Source of the DNA: Flagellimonas sp. HMM57
GTDB lineage: Bacteria; Bacteroidota; Bacteroidia; Flavobacteriales; Flavobacteriaceae
Assembly (NCBI RefSeq): GCF_021390175.1
Contig: NZ_CP090004.1
Coordinates: forward strand, 2,046,001-2,110,000
Direction of reading: 5' to 3'
Length of the DNA stretch: 64,000 nucleotides
Shown: positions 8,317-13,426 of the stretch, in pieces
Position numbering within the stretch: position 1 is the stretch's first letter
How the letters are laid out: the number at the start of each line of letters is the position of its first letter
Made by a program: the position numbers and the translations under genes
The notes under the pieces: generated by a model
Seen by the model: the letters and a program-made list of their open reading frames with translations, nothing else
Database searches by the model: none
What the model was told of the DNA's origin: nothing

Positions 8317-11300
8317 ATGAAGTTTGCTGAATATAGGGGATTGGATTTACCTAAAGTATCAGAAGAAATACTGAACTTTTGGAAAGAAAACGGGATTTTT
8401 GAAAAAAGTGTCTCTACCAGAGAGGGAAAGGAAAGCTATGTTTTTTACGAAGGGCCTCCGTCTGCCAACGGAATGCCTGGAATCCACCATGTAATGGCTC
8501 GTACCATTAAGGATATCTTTCCTAGGTACAAAACCATGAAAGGACATCAGGTAAAGCGGAAAGCGGGGTGGGACACCCACGGATTGCCCATCGAAATTGG
8601 TGTTGAGAAAGAACTGGGCATCACAAAAGAAGATATTGGTAAAAAGATTTCGGTCGAGGAATATAATGCTGCCTGTAAAAAAGCGGTCATGCGTTACACA
8701 GATGTTTGGAATGAGATGACCGAGAAAATAGGATATTGGGTAGATATGGATGACCCATATATTACCTACAAATCCAAGTATATGGAATCTGTTTGGTGGT
8801 TGCTAAAACAGATTTACGACAAAGGACTTTTATATAAAGGGTACACCATACAGCCTTACTCTCCTAAAGCGGGAACAGGTTTAAGTTCCCATGAGTTGAA
8901 TCAACCGGGCACGTATCAAGATGTTACGGATACTACGGTTACGGCTCAATTCAAGATAAAAAAAGAAACATTGCCTGCTATTTTTGATGGTATCGATGGG
9001 GAGGCCTATTTTTTGGCATGGACGACCACACCTTGGACACTGCCATCAAATACTGCGTTGACCGTAGGACCAAAGATTGACTATATTCTGGTTCAAAGCT
9101 TCAATCAATATACTTTTGAGCCTAGCTATGTGGTTTTGGCAAAAAGCTTGGTCGGGAAGCAATTTGGCGGCAAATTCTATGAGGCGCAAAGTGAGGAGGA
9201 TTTTGCTAACTACACAACTGCGGATAAAAAAATACCTTACCAAATCATTGCTGAAACAAAAGGAGTTGATTTAGTAGGTATCGAATACGAACAACTTATC
9301 GATTACGTTCAGCCCTATCAAAACCCAGAGAATGCATTCAGGGTCATTGCCGGCGATTTTGTAACCACAGAAGATGGAACTGGAATTGTGCATACTGCTC
9401 CTACCTTTGGTGCAGATGATGCTTTTGTAGCAAAACAGGCAAAACCAGAAGTCCCACCAATGCTGGTTTTGGATGAACATAACAATCCGGTTCCGTTGGT
9501 CGATTTACAAGGGAAATTTAGACCAGAACTTAAGGAGTTTGGCGGTAAATACGTAAAAAACGAATATTATAACGAAGGAGAGGCACCTGAGCGTTCCGTT
9601 GATGTTGAGATTGCCATCAAACTAAAAGAAGAGAATAAAGCGTTTAAGGTTGAAAAGTATGTGCACAGTTATCCGAATTGCTGGCGTACGGACAAACCTA
9701 TTCTTTACTATCCTTTGGATTCGTGGTTTATTAAGGTTACCGATGTTAAGGACCGTATGTTCGAGCTGAACCAAAGCATAAATTGGAAACCAAAGGCCAC
9801 AGGGGAGGGTCGTTTTGGAAATTGGTTGTTGAATGCCAATGACTGGAATCTTTCCCGTTCCCGTTATTGGGGGATTCCGTTGCCCATTTGGCGTACCGAA
9901 GATGGGAGCGAAGAATTATTGATCGGTTCTGTAGAAGAACTGAAAACAGAAATGGTGAAAGCCGTTGAAGCTGGATTGCTTGAAAAAGATGTTTTTGAAG
10001 ATTTTGTAGTGGGCGATATGAGCGAGTCCAACTATGATAAAATCGATTTACATAAAAACATAGTAGATCAAATTACTTTGGTCTCGCCTTCCGGAAAAGC
10101 AATGAAAAGGGAGTCGGACCTGATCGACGTTTGGTTTGATAGTGGTTCCATGCCCTACGCACAATGGCACTACCCTTTTGAAAATGAAGAATTGATAGAT
10201 GGTGGTATAGCATTCCCTGCTAACTTTATCGCCGAAGGCGTGGACCAAACAAGGGGTTGGTTCTATACTTTACATGCTATTGCAACCATGGTTTTTGATA
10301 CGGTATCGTATAAAAATGTGGTTTCCAATGGTTTGGTACTTGATAAGGAAGGCAAGAAGATGTCTAAAAGGTTGGGCAATGCCGTAGATCCTTTTCAAGT
10401 TTTACCAGAACACGGGCCAGATGCCACCCGATGGTACATGATTTCCAATGCAAATCCTTGGGATAATCTCAAGTTTGATATAGATGGTATTGTGGAAGTG
10501 AAACGTAAGTTCTTTGGAACACTTTATAATACGTATTCCTTTATGGCCTTATACGCCAATATTGATGAATTTGATTATTCCGAAGCACAAATACCATTGG
10601 CCAAGCGACCAGAAATAGACCAATGGATTCTTTCTGAGTTGCATTCCCTGATTCAGAAAGTGGATGAGGCGTATGCGGATTATGAAGCTACGAGGGCGGC
10701 AAGAATGATTTCGGATTATGTTCAGGAAAACCTTAGTAATTGGTACGTAAGGCTTAGTAGAAGACGCTTTTGGAAAGGCGACTACCAAGAAGACAAAATT
10801 TCGGCGTACCAGACCTTATATACCTGTTTGCTTACCGTAGCGAAACTATCTGCGCCCGTTGCACCTTTCTTTATGGATAGATTGTACCAAGACTTGAATG
10901 CAACGACCAAGAAAGAGGATTTTGAAAGCGTTCATCTTGCTGACTTTCCTGTTTTTGATGCCGCAATGGTGAATAAGCAGTTGGAGCGAAAAATGCAGTT
11001 GGCCCAAAAAGTATCTTCACTTGTATTATCCATCCGTCAGAAAGAGAAAATAAAGGTACGTCAGCCTTTACAAAAAATCATGATTCCTATTCTGGACAAT
11101 GAACAGAAAGAAGATATCGAGGCAGTTTCCGAACTCATAAAATCGGAAGTGAATGTAAAGGAAATTGAACTGTTGGATGATGCTTCTGGAATATTGGTAA
11201 AACAGATAAAACCTAATTTTAAGGTTTTAGGACCAAGATTTGGCAGGGATATGAAAGCTATTGCGGCGGCAGTAAATCAACTAGGTCAAGAAGATATCCA

Positions 11301-11718
11301 AAAAATTGAACAAGAAGGCGAATTAATGCTTGCATTGGAAAATAAAAGTATTAATTTACAGTTATCCGATGTAGAGATTAGCTCGCAAGATATAGAGGGT
11401 TGGTTGGTTGCAAGTTCTGGCTCTTTAACGGTTGCTTTGGATGTGACCATAGATGAAAATTTAAGAAAGGAAGGAATAGCCAGAGAATTGGTCAATAGAA
11501 TCCAGAATCTGAGAAAGGAATCTGGATTTGAGGTAACCGATAAAATAGATATTAAGATTTTGAAAGATGGTTTTGTGGAAAATGCGGTCTCCAGTAACGA
11601 GAATTATATAAAAACGGAAACACTAACGGCAGAACTTAATTTTGAAGAAAAATTAGACGAAGGCGTCGCAATTGCTTTCGATGAAGTGAATACAAAATTG
11701 TTTATCCAAAAACACTAG
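8317..11718 (+). CDS. ileS: Isoleucyl-tRNA synthetase, type 2, with inverted GXHH signature
   Basis: 1133 aa, long as in the eukaryote-like type-2 IleRS. It charges tRNA-Ile. The N-terminal catalytic Rossmann fold starts YVFYEGPPSANGMPGIHH; the first class-I motif, normally HIGH, reads G55-I56-H57-H58, so positions 1 and 3 are exchanged. The second motif is canonical: KMSKR at residues 681-685. The CP1 editing domain (about 190-400) contains the TTTPWTLPSN motif and GTGIVHTAP. The anticodon-binding domain and a long C-terminal extension follow. The dksA-like gene follows 5 bp after the stop. Exchange of the signature is known in a subset of type-2 IleRS and is linked to very high mupirocin resistance. 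Confidence 0.95.
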   Translation: MKFAEYRGLDLPKVSEEILNFWKENGIFEKSVSTREGKESYVFYEGPPSANGMPGIHHVMARTIKDIFPRYKTMKGHQVKRKAGWDTHGLPIEIGVEKELGITKEDIGKKISVEEYNAACKKAVMRYTDVWNEMTEKIGYWVDMDDPYITYKSKYMESVWWLLKQIYDKGLLYKGYTIQPYSPKAGTGLSSHELNQPGTYQDVTDTTVTAQFKIKKETLPAIFDGIDGEAYFLAWTTTPWTLPSNTALTVGPKIDYILVQSFNQYTFEPSYVVLAKSLVGKQFGGKFYEAQSEEDFANYTTADKKIPYQIIAETKGVDLVGIEYEQLIDYVQPYQNPENAFRVIAGDFVTTEDGTGIVHTAPTFGADDAFVAKQAKPEVPPMLVLDEHNNPVPLVDLQGKFRPELKEFGGKYVKNEYYNEGEAPERSVDVEIAIKLKEENKAFKVEKYVHSYPNCWRTDKPILYYPLDSWFIKVTDVKDRMFELNQSINWKPKATGEGRFGNWLLNANDWNLSRSRYWGIPLPIWRTEDGSEELLIGSVEELKTEMVKAVEAGLLEKDVFEDFVVGDMSESNYDKIDLHKNIVDQITLVSPSGKAMKRESDLIDVWFDSGSMPYAQWHYPFENEELIDGGIAFPANFIAEGVDQTRGWFYTLHAIATMVFDTVSYKNVVSNGLVLDKEGKKMSKRLGNAVDPFQVLPEHGPDATRWYMISNANPWDNLKFDIDGIVEVKRKFFGTLYNTYSFMALYANIDEFDYSEAQIPLAKRPEIDQWILSELHSLIQKVDEAYADYEATRAARMISDYVQENLSNWYVRLSRRRFWKGDYQEDKISAYQTLYTCLLTVAKLSAPVAPFFMDRLYQDLNATTKKEDFESVHLADFPVFDAAMVNKQLERKMQLAQKVSSLVLSIRQKEKIKVRQPLQKIMIPILDNEQKEDIEAVSELIKSEVNVKEIELLDDASGILVKQIKPNFKVLGPRFGRDMKAIAAAVNQLGQEDIQKIEQEGELMLALENKSINLQLSDVEISSQDIEGWLVASSGSLTVALDVTIDENLRKEGIARELVNRIQNLRKESGFEVTDKIDIKILKDGFVENAVSSNENYIKTETLTAELNFEEKLDEGVAIAFDEVNTKLFIQKH

Positions 11719-11723
11719 AACAC

Positions 11724-12107
11724 ATGGCAGAAGATTTAAAAATAAGATACTCAGATAGCGACTTGGAAGAATTTAAAGTGCTAATCGAAGAGAAAATAGA
11801 TAAGGCGAAAAACCATTTGGACTTACTAAAAAGCTCCTATATGAACGATGGCAACAACGGTACAGATGATACCTCGCCAACTTTTAAGGCTTTTGAAGAA
11901 GGTTCCGAAACCATGAGCAAAGAAGCGAATACCCAACTTGCAATCCGTCAGGAAAAATTCATTAGGGATTTAAAGAATGCTCTATTACGAATAGAGAACA
12001 AAACCTATGGCATTTGTCGCGTAACCGGAAAACTGATCAACAAGGAACGGTTAAAATTGGTTCCACATGCTACGCTCAGTATTGAAGCTAAAAACATGCA
12101 GAAATAA
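11724..12107 (+). CDS. TraR/DksA-family protein with degenerate zinc finger
   Basis: 127 aa. The N-terminal helices are followed by ENKTYGICRVTGKLINKERL and LVPHATLSIEAK, the C-terminal DksA/TraR zinc-finger region. Of the four cysteines of the normal CxxC-x17-CxxC, only C98 remains; the others are T101, S119 and A122. DksA-like proteins bind the RNA polymerase secondary channel. This version may act without zinc. It is 5 bp downstream of ileS and is closed by a terminator, so ileS and this gene form an operon. Confidence 0.8.
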   Translation: MAEDLKIRYSDSDLEEFKVLIEEKIDKAKNHLDLLKSSYMNDGNNGTDDTSPTFKAFEEGSETMSKEANTQLAIRQEKFIRDLKNALLRIENKTYGICRVTGKLINKERLKLVPHATLSIEAKNMQK

Positions 12108-12110
12108 TAA

Positions 12111-12133
12111 AAAAACGCCGAAAGGCGTTTTTT
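12111..12133 (+). terminator. Rho-independent terminator after the dksA-like gene
   Basis: AAAAACGCC and GGCGTTTTT pair around a GAAA tetraloop, followed directly by T residues. It ends the ileS/dksA-like unit; the next ATG (12138) lies only 5 bp beyond, so that gene's mRNA must either begin very close to its start codon or depend on read-through. Confidence 0.85.
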
Positions 12134-12137
12134 GTTT

Positions 12138-12758
12138 ATGAGAACGCTGCTCTTTTTTTTTAGTGTTTTTTCTTTCTGTGCCATGAATGGTCAGAAGTTG
12201 ATAAAAAAAGCCTTTATCAATCCTGAAACGCAATTTATTCAAATTGACTCCCAAAATTGTTATAAGGTTAGTATTGGTACCTCTAAAAAAGAAGAGGTTA
12301 CTATTGCTGGGAGCATGGAAGGAGAGTATTCCAAAGATTTATTGGTCACTATTGAGCAAAAGGGGGCCACTGTATTAATAAGTACAGGATTTCAGCCCAA
12401 CTTCACTAATCCCAATGATAAACTAAGTGCACATAAGGTCATTTCTATAGAACTGAATATAAGTTTGCCAGAATACAAAGATGTTTCCGTTTATGGAACC
12501 AATTGTAATGTTTTAGCCGAAGGGGACTATAAAAGACTCAAGATAAAATTGGCCGATGGTACATGTTCGCTAGAAAACGTTGGGGAAACTGTTGAAGTCA
12601 ATACTCAAAAAGGAAACATTTTTCTTTCTACTTCGAATGGGGATGTTGTGGCAAAAAGTACGTATGGCGAAGTGCGTCGCGAGACTATTCCTAAAGGGGA
12701 TAATGTATTTGTACTGAATACGGTCGAAGGCAATATCTATCTAAAGAAAACGAAATAA
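12138..12758 (+). CDS. Secreted DUF4097-like beta-helix protein
   Basis: 206 aa from the ATG at 12138; the signal peptide runs to about FCAMNGQ. The mature part has short repeating beta-strands (VSVYGTNCNVLAEGDY, LKIKLADGTCSLENVG, VEVNTQKGNIFLSTSNGD, VVAKSTYGEVRRETI) as in DUF4097/GIN-type putative adhesin right-handed beta-helices. The cellular role is unknown. It lies between the dksA-like gene and lspA, 32 bp before lspA, which has its own promoter. Confidence 0.7.
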   Translation: MRTLLFFFSVFSFCAMNGQKLIKKAFINPETQFIQIDSQNCYKVSIGTSKKEEVTIAGSMEGEYSKDLLVTIEQKGATVLISTGFQPNFTNPNDKLSAHKVISIELNISLPEYKDVSVYGTNCNVLAEGDYKRLKIKLADGTCSLENVGETVEVNTQKGNIFLSTSNGDVVAKSTYGEVRRETIPKGDNVFVLNTVEGNIYLKKTK

Positions 12759-12764
12759 TATCCA

Positions 12765-12772
12765 TATTTTTG
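12765..12772 (+). promoter_or_regulatory. -7 promoter element of lspA
   Basis: TATTTTTG matches TAnnTTTG and lies 18 bp before the ATG at 12791. A start at 12770 would begin inside the box, so 12791 is preferred. Confidence 0.5.
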
Positions 12773-12790
12773 CAATCTGTTTTTAAAAGC

Positions 12791-13426
12791 ATGAATTTAA
12801 AGAAGTCCCTATCGCTCATCATCATTGTTCTTGTAGTTGACCAGATAAGCAAAATCTATGTCAAGACTAATTTTGTTCTGGGTGAATCTACATTGGTTTT
12901 TGACTGGTTTAGAATTCTTTTTATTGAAAACGAAGGTGCTGCTTGGGGAACCAAGCTCAGTGATATTTTACCAATATCGGAATCAACGGGAAAGTTGGTG
13001 CTAACTATTTTTAGACTTTTTGCCATTTTTGGTATTGGATATTGGCTTTGGGATATTATAAAAAAGCAATCGCCAAAAACTTTAATTTTAGCCGTTTCCC
13101 TCATTTTTGCCGGGGCTTTGGGGAATATTATCGATTCCGTTTTTTACGGAATTATTTTTGACAGCAGCAGTAACCAAGTGGCTACACTGTTTTCAAGTGA
13201 ACCTTATGGGAACCTTTTTTACGGTAAAGTTGTAGATATGCTCTACTTTCCACTAATAGATACAACTTGGCCAGAATGGGTTCCATCCGTAGGGGGAAAT
13301 AAGTTTCGTTTTTTTGAACCTGTCTTTAATATTGCCGATACTGCAATCAGCACGGGTGTTGGAATTTTGATTGTATTTAATAAAAAAGCTTTTCCCAAAA
13401 GTATAAAAGCTAAGTCAGCGGATTAG
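12791..13426 (+). CDS. lspA: Lipoprotein signal peptidase (signal peptidase II)
   Basis: 211 aa. This inner-membrane aspartic peptidase cleaves prolipoprotein signal peptides after lipid attachment, and so serves the many lipoproteins seen in this window. Four membrane segments are visible. The conserved first segment holds VVDQISKIYVK; the catalytic aspartates are D115 in GALGNIIDSVFYG and D183 in FNIADTAIS. The insert between them makes the protein longer than the 165-aa proteobacterial enzyme, as is usual in Bacteroidota. Its stop overlaps the convergent cyclo-ligase gene by 4 bp. Confidence 0.93.
   Translation: MNLKKSLSLIIIVLVVDQISKIYVKTNFVLGESTLVFDWFRILFIENEGAAWGTKLSDILPISESTGKLVLTIFRLFAIFGIGYWLWDIIKKQSPKTLILAVSLIFAGALGNIIDSVFYGIIFDSSSNQVATLFSSEPYGNLFYGKVVDMLYFPLIDTTWPEWVPSVGGNKFRFFEPVFNIADTAISTGVGILIVFNKKAFPKSIKAKSAD

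Follow-up and report, generated by a model that had tools for sequence, protein, structure and literature searches.

A sole type 2 isoleucyl-tRNA synthetase with the exchanged class-I motif GIHH, and the distribution of this motif in a sample of its phylum

Type 2 isoleucyl-tRNA synthetases with an exchanged motif

The closest described systems are the type 2 isoleucyl-tRNA synthetases (IleRS2) treated in a study from 2023 (PMC10485003). It compares 379 IleRSs and divides the 163 prokaryotic type 2 enzymes into 77 with HXGH as the first class-I motif and 86 with G/AXHH, i.e., with Gly or Ala in the first place and His in the third; the passages of the paper used here hold no type 1 IleRS with an altered motif. 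By motif exchange G/AXHH was tied to a high mupirocin Ki in the mM range. The Deinococcus radiodurans enzyme, which has ALHH, shows a Ki of 6.6 mM, and this value is 823-fold lower when the motif is HVGH. GVHH put into the Thermus thermophilus IleRS increased the Ki from 0.20 to 35 µM, and put into Priestia megaterium IleRS2 it increased the Ki from 1.08 to 460 µM (PMC10485003, Table 1); these GVHH mutants stayed below the mM range. Crystal structures in the same paper show that the third His is able to replace the first, and the clash between this His and mupirocin is the authors' model. A natural reversion of the motif is reported in Deinococcus-Thermus.

The initial annotation of the DNA studied here had stated that a subset of type 2 enzymes, with the first and third motif residues exchanged, is reported to be hyper-resistant to mupirocin and still active, and the passages of PMC10485003 bear this account out. 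A literature search for later papers on IleRS2, the HIGH motif and GXHH gave PMC10485003 only. The phenomenon itself is in print (PMC10485003); the distribution of GXHH is what the present analysis adds. The main text of that paper contains neither "Bacteroid" nor "Flavobacter", a statement which does not extend to its figures and source data.

The ileS gene, its motif and its surroundings

The window is the whole stretch of DNA that was analyzed (64,000 nucleotides). The features of its ileS gene are collected in Table 1. No RNA family was found in the window at gathering threshold.

Table 1. Features of the ileS gene in the window.
Feature	Position	Strand	Basis
ileS, type 2 isoleucyl-tRNA synthetase, 1133 aa	8317..11718	+	Open reading frame, TIGR00392, genome search; sole IleRS found
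Class-I signature in the swapped form GXHH, Gly55-Ile56-His57-His58	8479..8490	+	Translation; alignment with HIGH of E. coli and HVGH of P. megaterium IleRS2
HYPFE, type 2/eukaryote-like signature, residues 618-622	10168..10182	+	Alignment; signature according to passages of PMC4861432
KMSKR, second class-I motif, residues 681-685	10357..10371	+	Translation and alignment
C-terminal DUF5915 domain (PF19302), residues 939-1132	11131..11712	+	Pfam; E. coli type 1 IleRS has a zinc finger there instead

The first motif is encoded as GGA-ATC-CAC-CAT, which gives G-I-H-H at codons 55-58 of an ATG-started reading frame, in the context EGPPSANGMP-GIHH-VMARTIKD. In the alignments it coincides exactly with HIGH of the E. 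coli IleRS, and in P. megaterium IleRS2 the matching residues are His54, Gly56 and His57. Places 1 and 3 of the motif are exchanged, and a shifted alignment is no explanation. Bases, frame and alignments all agree with the GIHH which the initial annotation had placed at these residues of a 1133-aa IleRS; with Gly first and His third the motif is of the G/AXHH type. The same annotation called the second motif, KMSKR, normal. Most of the window's class does have KMSKR, but E. coli, P. megaterium and most of the sampled genomes outside the class have KMSKS. Among loci L006-L095, KMSKR prevails in the class, with exceptions such as L060, L068 and L073, and the other genomes of the phylum have mostly KMSKS and sometimes KMSKT.

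Several comparisons place the enzyme among the type 2 IleRSs. It scores 999.2 bits against the ileS profile TIGR00392, exceeding the curated cut-off of 621.4. In a phmmer search of the PDB it scores 812 bits against P. megaterium IleRS2 (8c8u) versus 299.5 against IleRS1 of the same species (8c9e), and 315 bits against 1ffy; for the E. coli IleRS the order among the same solved structures is reversed, with IleRS1 above IleRS2. Against the NCBIfam profiles for MupB and MupA the scores are 756 and 734 bits. The window enzyme has PF19302 and lacks the PF06827 zinc finger, whereas the E. coli enzyme has PF06827 and lacks PF19302. Tyr59, NKIL and SSL of E. coli are aligned with Ser49, ARTI and TLH, and the presence of HYPFE together with the absence of the type 1 residues Tyr59/NKIL/SSL are signatures of type 2 IleRS according to the passages of PMC4861432. 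It should be noted that HYPFE is not a strict marker, since the exact string is found in 133 of 159 alignment rows and is missing from E. coli and 25 others. As judged from profile and PDB scores, the C-terminal domain and the signature residues, the assignment to type 2 proposed in the initial annotation is confirmed.

The window's genome is one contig of 4,159,450 bases and 100% complete. The initial annotation had pointed to a second ileS elsewhere as something to look for; one ileS was found in this genome, and all other matches were weak. The ValRS of the genome has HMGH (918.6 bits to TIGR00422) and its LeuRS has HVGH (602.7 bits to TIGR00396 over a partial sequence). Rescue by a second IleRS was rejected as none was found, and as the sole IleRS the GXHH enzyme must carry the housekeeping function.

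The gene order on the forward strand from 8317 to 13426 is ileS, a gene for a DksA/TraR-like protein, one for a 208-aa protein without a Pfam match, and lspA; in E. coli K-12 lspA is also found directly 3' of ileS. The DksA/TraR-like protein (127 aa, 11724-12107, forward strand) follows directly after ileS and matches PF01258 with 30.8 bits. Its zinc-finger stretch holds a single Cys (GICRVTGK), and the protein therefore probably binds no zinc.

Distribution and origin of GXHH

Of 8000 candidates scored in a protein search, the best 120 were examined. All 120 have GIHH together with KMSKR, and those among them which are named by genus belong to Flagellimonas, Allomuricauda or Muricauda; to judge from these names, the window comes from a flavobacterium close to Flagellimonas/Allomuricauda. 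A read-level correction restoring HXGH, which the initial annotation had kept in mind, was looked for through these relatives and none was found among the best 120 of the 8000; with GIHH in every relative read, a sequencing error behind the motif is ruled out.

The sample of the phylum comprises 198 genomes from 103 genera, and the motif was read in all of them. They were read in batches of 78, 80 and 40 genomes. The first batch came from 81 matches, including three repeat loci of the same genomes, and the last 40 were added on purpose from the low-score part, being absent from the first listing. All 198 genomes have GXHH: 141 GIHH, 55 GVHH, 1 GLHH and 1 GMHH. The codons of the motif, seen for 80 of the 198, vary between genomes. 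One genome counted among the 198 (G176) has ileS only as a fragment at a contig end, which reads GIHH. Low scores in three genomes (G057, G103, G190) raised the thought of a replaced ileS; this was rejected because they are split matches of type 2 genes which together give 996, 976.7 and 939.4 bits. In another genome (G067, locus L272) there is an in-frame TAG stop in the ileS reading frame, either a sequence error or a real break. From the named closest proteins, and from a locus titled Bacteroidota bacterium (L173) which in the kept alignment columns equals sampled genome G014, we infer that the sampled phylum is Bacteroidota.

GXHH is an old lineage trait, ordinary for its phylum and not peculiar to the strain, and it looks as if it was fixed before the sampled members of the phylum diverged. 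The rarity implied by the initial annotation was overstated, as 86 of the 163 prokaryotic type 2 enzymes have G/AXHH according to passages of PMC10485003 and the motif is universal in the sampled phylum.

For contrast, species genomes were scanned with a mixed alignment that had P. megaterium IleRS2 as its leading sequence, and the best 80 of at least 583 confirmed relatives were used; because P. megaterium leads the query alignment this set is biased to Bacillota. Among these best 80, HXGH is found in 67 (59 HIGH, 6 HVGH, 2 HAGH) and GXHH in 13 (10 GIHH, 2 GVHH, 1 GSHH), and none of the 80 has a half-swapped motif. L173 and a locus titled Ignavibacteria (L176) are two of the 13. HAGH occurs in Salimicrobium album (L097) and Rossellomorea vietnamensis (L104), and GSHH in a Solirubrobacteraceae MAG (L175); Ala and Ser as second motif residue are outside the list Ile/Val/Leu/Met/Tyr given in the passages of PMC10485003. 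In a Poribacteria IleRS2 (L174, 1570-1620, translated by eye) GVHH follows GPPFANAPP instead of GPPxANGxP.

A FastTree tree was made with the motif columns excluded from 159 rows, i.e., 78 of the 198 phylum genomes, the 80 named loci and E. coli. In it 87 rows, all with GXHH, form one branch with a support of 99; besides the 78 phylum genomes this branch includes L173, L176, one Cloacimonadota MAG (Candidatus Tenebribacter) and six enzymes with clostridial titles. Four deep GXHH rows, two from Caldiserica (L128, L170), one from Poribacteria (L174) and one from Solirubrobacteraceae (L175), lie outside this branch and are loosely placed; over the whole tree the motif state has to change at least three times. 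Because of a FastTree warning about L175, where the long E. coli branch attaches, a second, unrooted LG+C20 tree was made without E. coli from 49 hand-chosen rows of the 159. It is consistent with the 87-row branch and needs two changes. In the motif-free tree the window's phylum thus groups with other GXHH IleRS2, among rows that include no experimentally studied G/AXHH enzyme and none from Deinococcus-Thermus. One origin of GXHH would be compatible with the trees, the rooting of which is too poor to separate gain from loss.

Half-swapped motifs were also looked for directly. HXHH in the IleRS context gave 0 matches in 84,980 species genomes, in a scan for the exact pattern, with codons with a middle T for the second residue, on contigs of at least 3,000 bases; the result applies to HXHH and not to GXGH or other one-sided states, and genomes identical or very close to that of the window may be absent from the records scanned. 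As a control the same frame with GXHH recovered all 198 phylum genomes and, among the 13 named GXHH loci, 11 (L174 and L175 were missed), and with HXGH it recovered E. coli and 65 of the 67 named HXGH loci (the two with HAGH, L097 and L104, were missed). The HXHH pattern is therefore sensitive for this context. One-sided motif states are expected to be poor enzymes, and the clean split between HXGH and GXHH, with HXHH not found, sharpens the question of how the catalytic pair changes places.

We consider it very likely that the window encodes the sole housekeeping type 2 IleRS of its genome in the known non-canonical GXHH form, with the mechanism described in the literature and a predicted hyper-resistance of the enzyme. 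Because the motif departs from the class-I rule which the ValRS and the LeuRS of the same genome keep, one could think of a sequencing or assembly error, or of a degenerate and non-functional copy; GIHH in the best 120 of 8000 homologues, GXHH in every sampled genome of the phylum, and an open 1133-aa frame for the sole IleRS found in a one-contig genome leave this idea practically no room. A recent gain by the strain or the genus under mupirocin-like pressure, for example from the marine pseudomonic-acid hybrids, could be considered: the thiomarinols of marine Pseudoalteromonas target IleRS (passages of PMC3069032), and many species of the closest named genus have names that point to the sea. 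However, GXHH is found in 198 of 198 genomes from 103 genera, and the treed phylum genomes form one all-GXHH branch with Cloacimonadota and six clostridial enzymes, so the motif is far older than the genus and a recent gain is very improbable. A motif which is phylum-wide should not be read as a sign of recent mupirocin selection.

A weightier alternative is that the motif is not there for resistance, but is kept by lock-in or belongs to an editing variant of the enzyme. The persistence of GXHH without reversion in all 198 genomes from many families speaks for this, and the mixed disc results in the passages of PMC5884911 fit a trait that is not kept for resistance. For the editing variant there is the IleRS2 of Streptomyces griseus, a natural G/AXHH enzyme in which tRNA-dependent pre-transfer editing is absent. 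On the other side, the authors of PMC10485003 favor antibiotic selection and find large Ki effects of motif exchange, the natural reversion in Deinococcus-Thermus argues against a strict form of lock-in, and one enzyme pair cannot link the motif with editing. We regard this alternative as a real possibility which falls short of an even chance; as regards present function it is compatible with the housekeeping GXHH enzyme that we prefer. A more detailed and still more tentative proposal, which we hold to be rather unlikely as a whole, is that GXHH became fixed a single time, before the phylum and its relatives among Cloacimonadota and clostridia radiated, with no reversion in the 198 sampled genomes and no half-swapped relative seen, and that it has been kept by an internal constraint of the enzyme. 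This constraint would be epistatic lock-in or else an editing regime that differs at the synthetic site, mupirocin hyper-resistance being a by-product. If true, the phylum would offer a natural way of testing whether GXHH is explained by drug pressure. A possible link between the motif swap and editing could be tested in this phylum as well.

Mupirocin resistance and the known systems

In the published mechanism the active-site helix is displaced in type 2 enzymes, and because of this the His in the third place, which would be His57 here, acts in the transition state instead of the usual first His and leaves adenine undisturbed. In the authors' model this His also clashes with mupirocin, from which a very high Ki, near millimolar, would be expected. 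The motif, the enzyme type, the single copy and the conservation in the sampled phylum are observations on this gene and its relatives; that His57 serves in catalysis and that the enzyme is hyper-resistant is inferred from the literature. That the organism itself should have strong intrinsic resistance to mupirocin, as the initial annotation predicted, is a reasonable prediction.

Literature searches, mostly at the level of listings, found no mupirocin phenotype for the window's genus. The genera Flavobacterium, Chryseobacterium and Sphingobacterium, for which there are disc data, we take to belong to the window's phylum. A survey by disc diffusion with 200-µg discs counted resistant and intermediate isolates as resistant and all others as sensitive (PMC5884911). 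Mupirocin resistance is entered for Chryseobacterium balustinum and Sphingobacterium multivorum (PMC5884911, Table 2) but for neither of two Flavobacterium hydatis entries, nor for F. resinovorum or F. tirrenicum. This makes 2 of 6 entries from Bacteroidota genera resistant, in a table without genomes and for isolates whose naming basis is not given in the passages concerned. No other mupirocin data on Bacteroidota isolates were found in the literature beyond PMC5884911. Target-based mupirocin resistance is predicted across the sampled phylum; the disc survey agrees with this only partly, and uniform strong resistance of the cells following from a phylum-wide enzyme trait is not borne out there. 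Resistance-gene screens which flag IleRS as a mupirocin determinant in Bacteroidota would report a housekeeping gene; one such listing is a table row in PMC10835994.

Among the known systems, IleRS2 of Streptomyces griseus and of D. radiodurans, as described in the passages of PMC10485003, resemble the window enzyme in being type 2 with a non-canonical first motif and His in the third place. The D. radiodurans enzyme, likened here by its published description, has ALHH, whereas the window enzyme has GIHH and KMSKR and belongs to the Bacteroidota branch. P. megaterium IleRS2 (8c8u and related entries) is also of type 2, with 46% identity to the stretch used, and its Trp130 is kept as Trp131 in the window enzyme. 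It differs in having HVGH in a genome which also holds an IleRS1, and its mupirocin Ki is the 1.08 µM of PMC10485003, Table 1. Its His582, discussed at the mupirocin site in the passages of PMC10485003, corresponds to Leu673, and the two enzymes consequently differ in this pocket. The type 1 IleS of E. coli has the reaction and the class-I fold in common with the window enzyme, at 27% identity over 845 aligned residues, but its HIGH, NKIL, SSL and C-terminal zinc finger are not shared. MupA and MupB (NF000257, NF000258) are type 2 kin of the window enzyme, which at 734 and 756 bits stays far below their 1900-bit cut-offs; they are acquired as an extra copy, whereas the ileS of the window is the sole and chromosomal gene.
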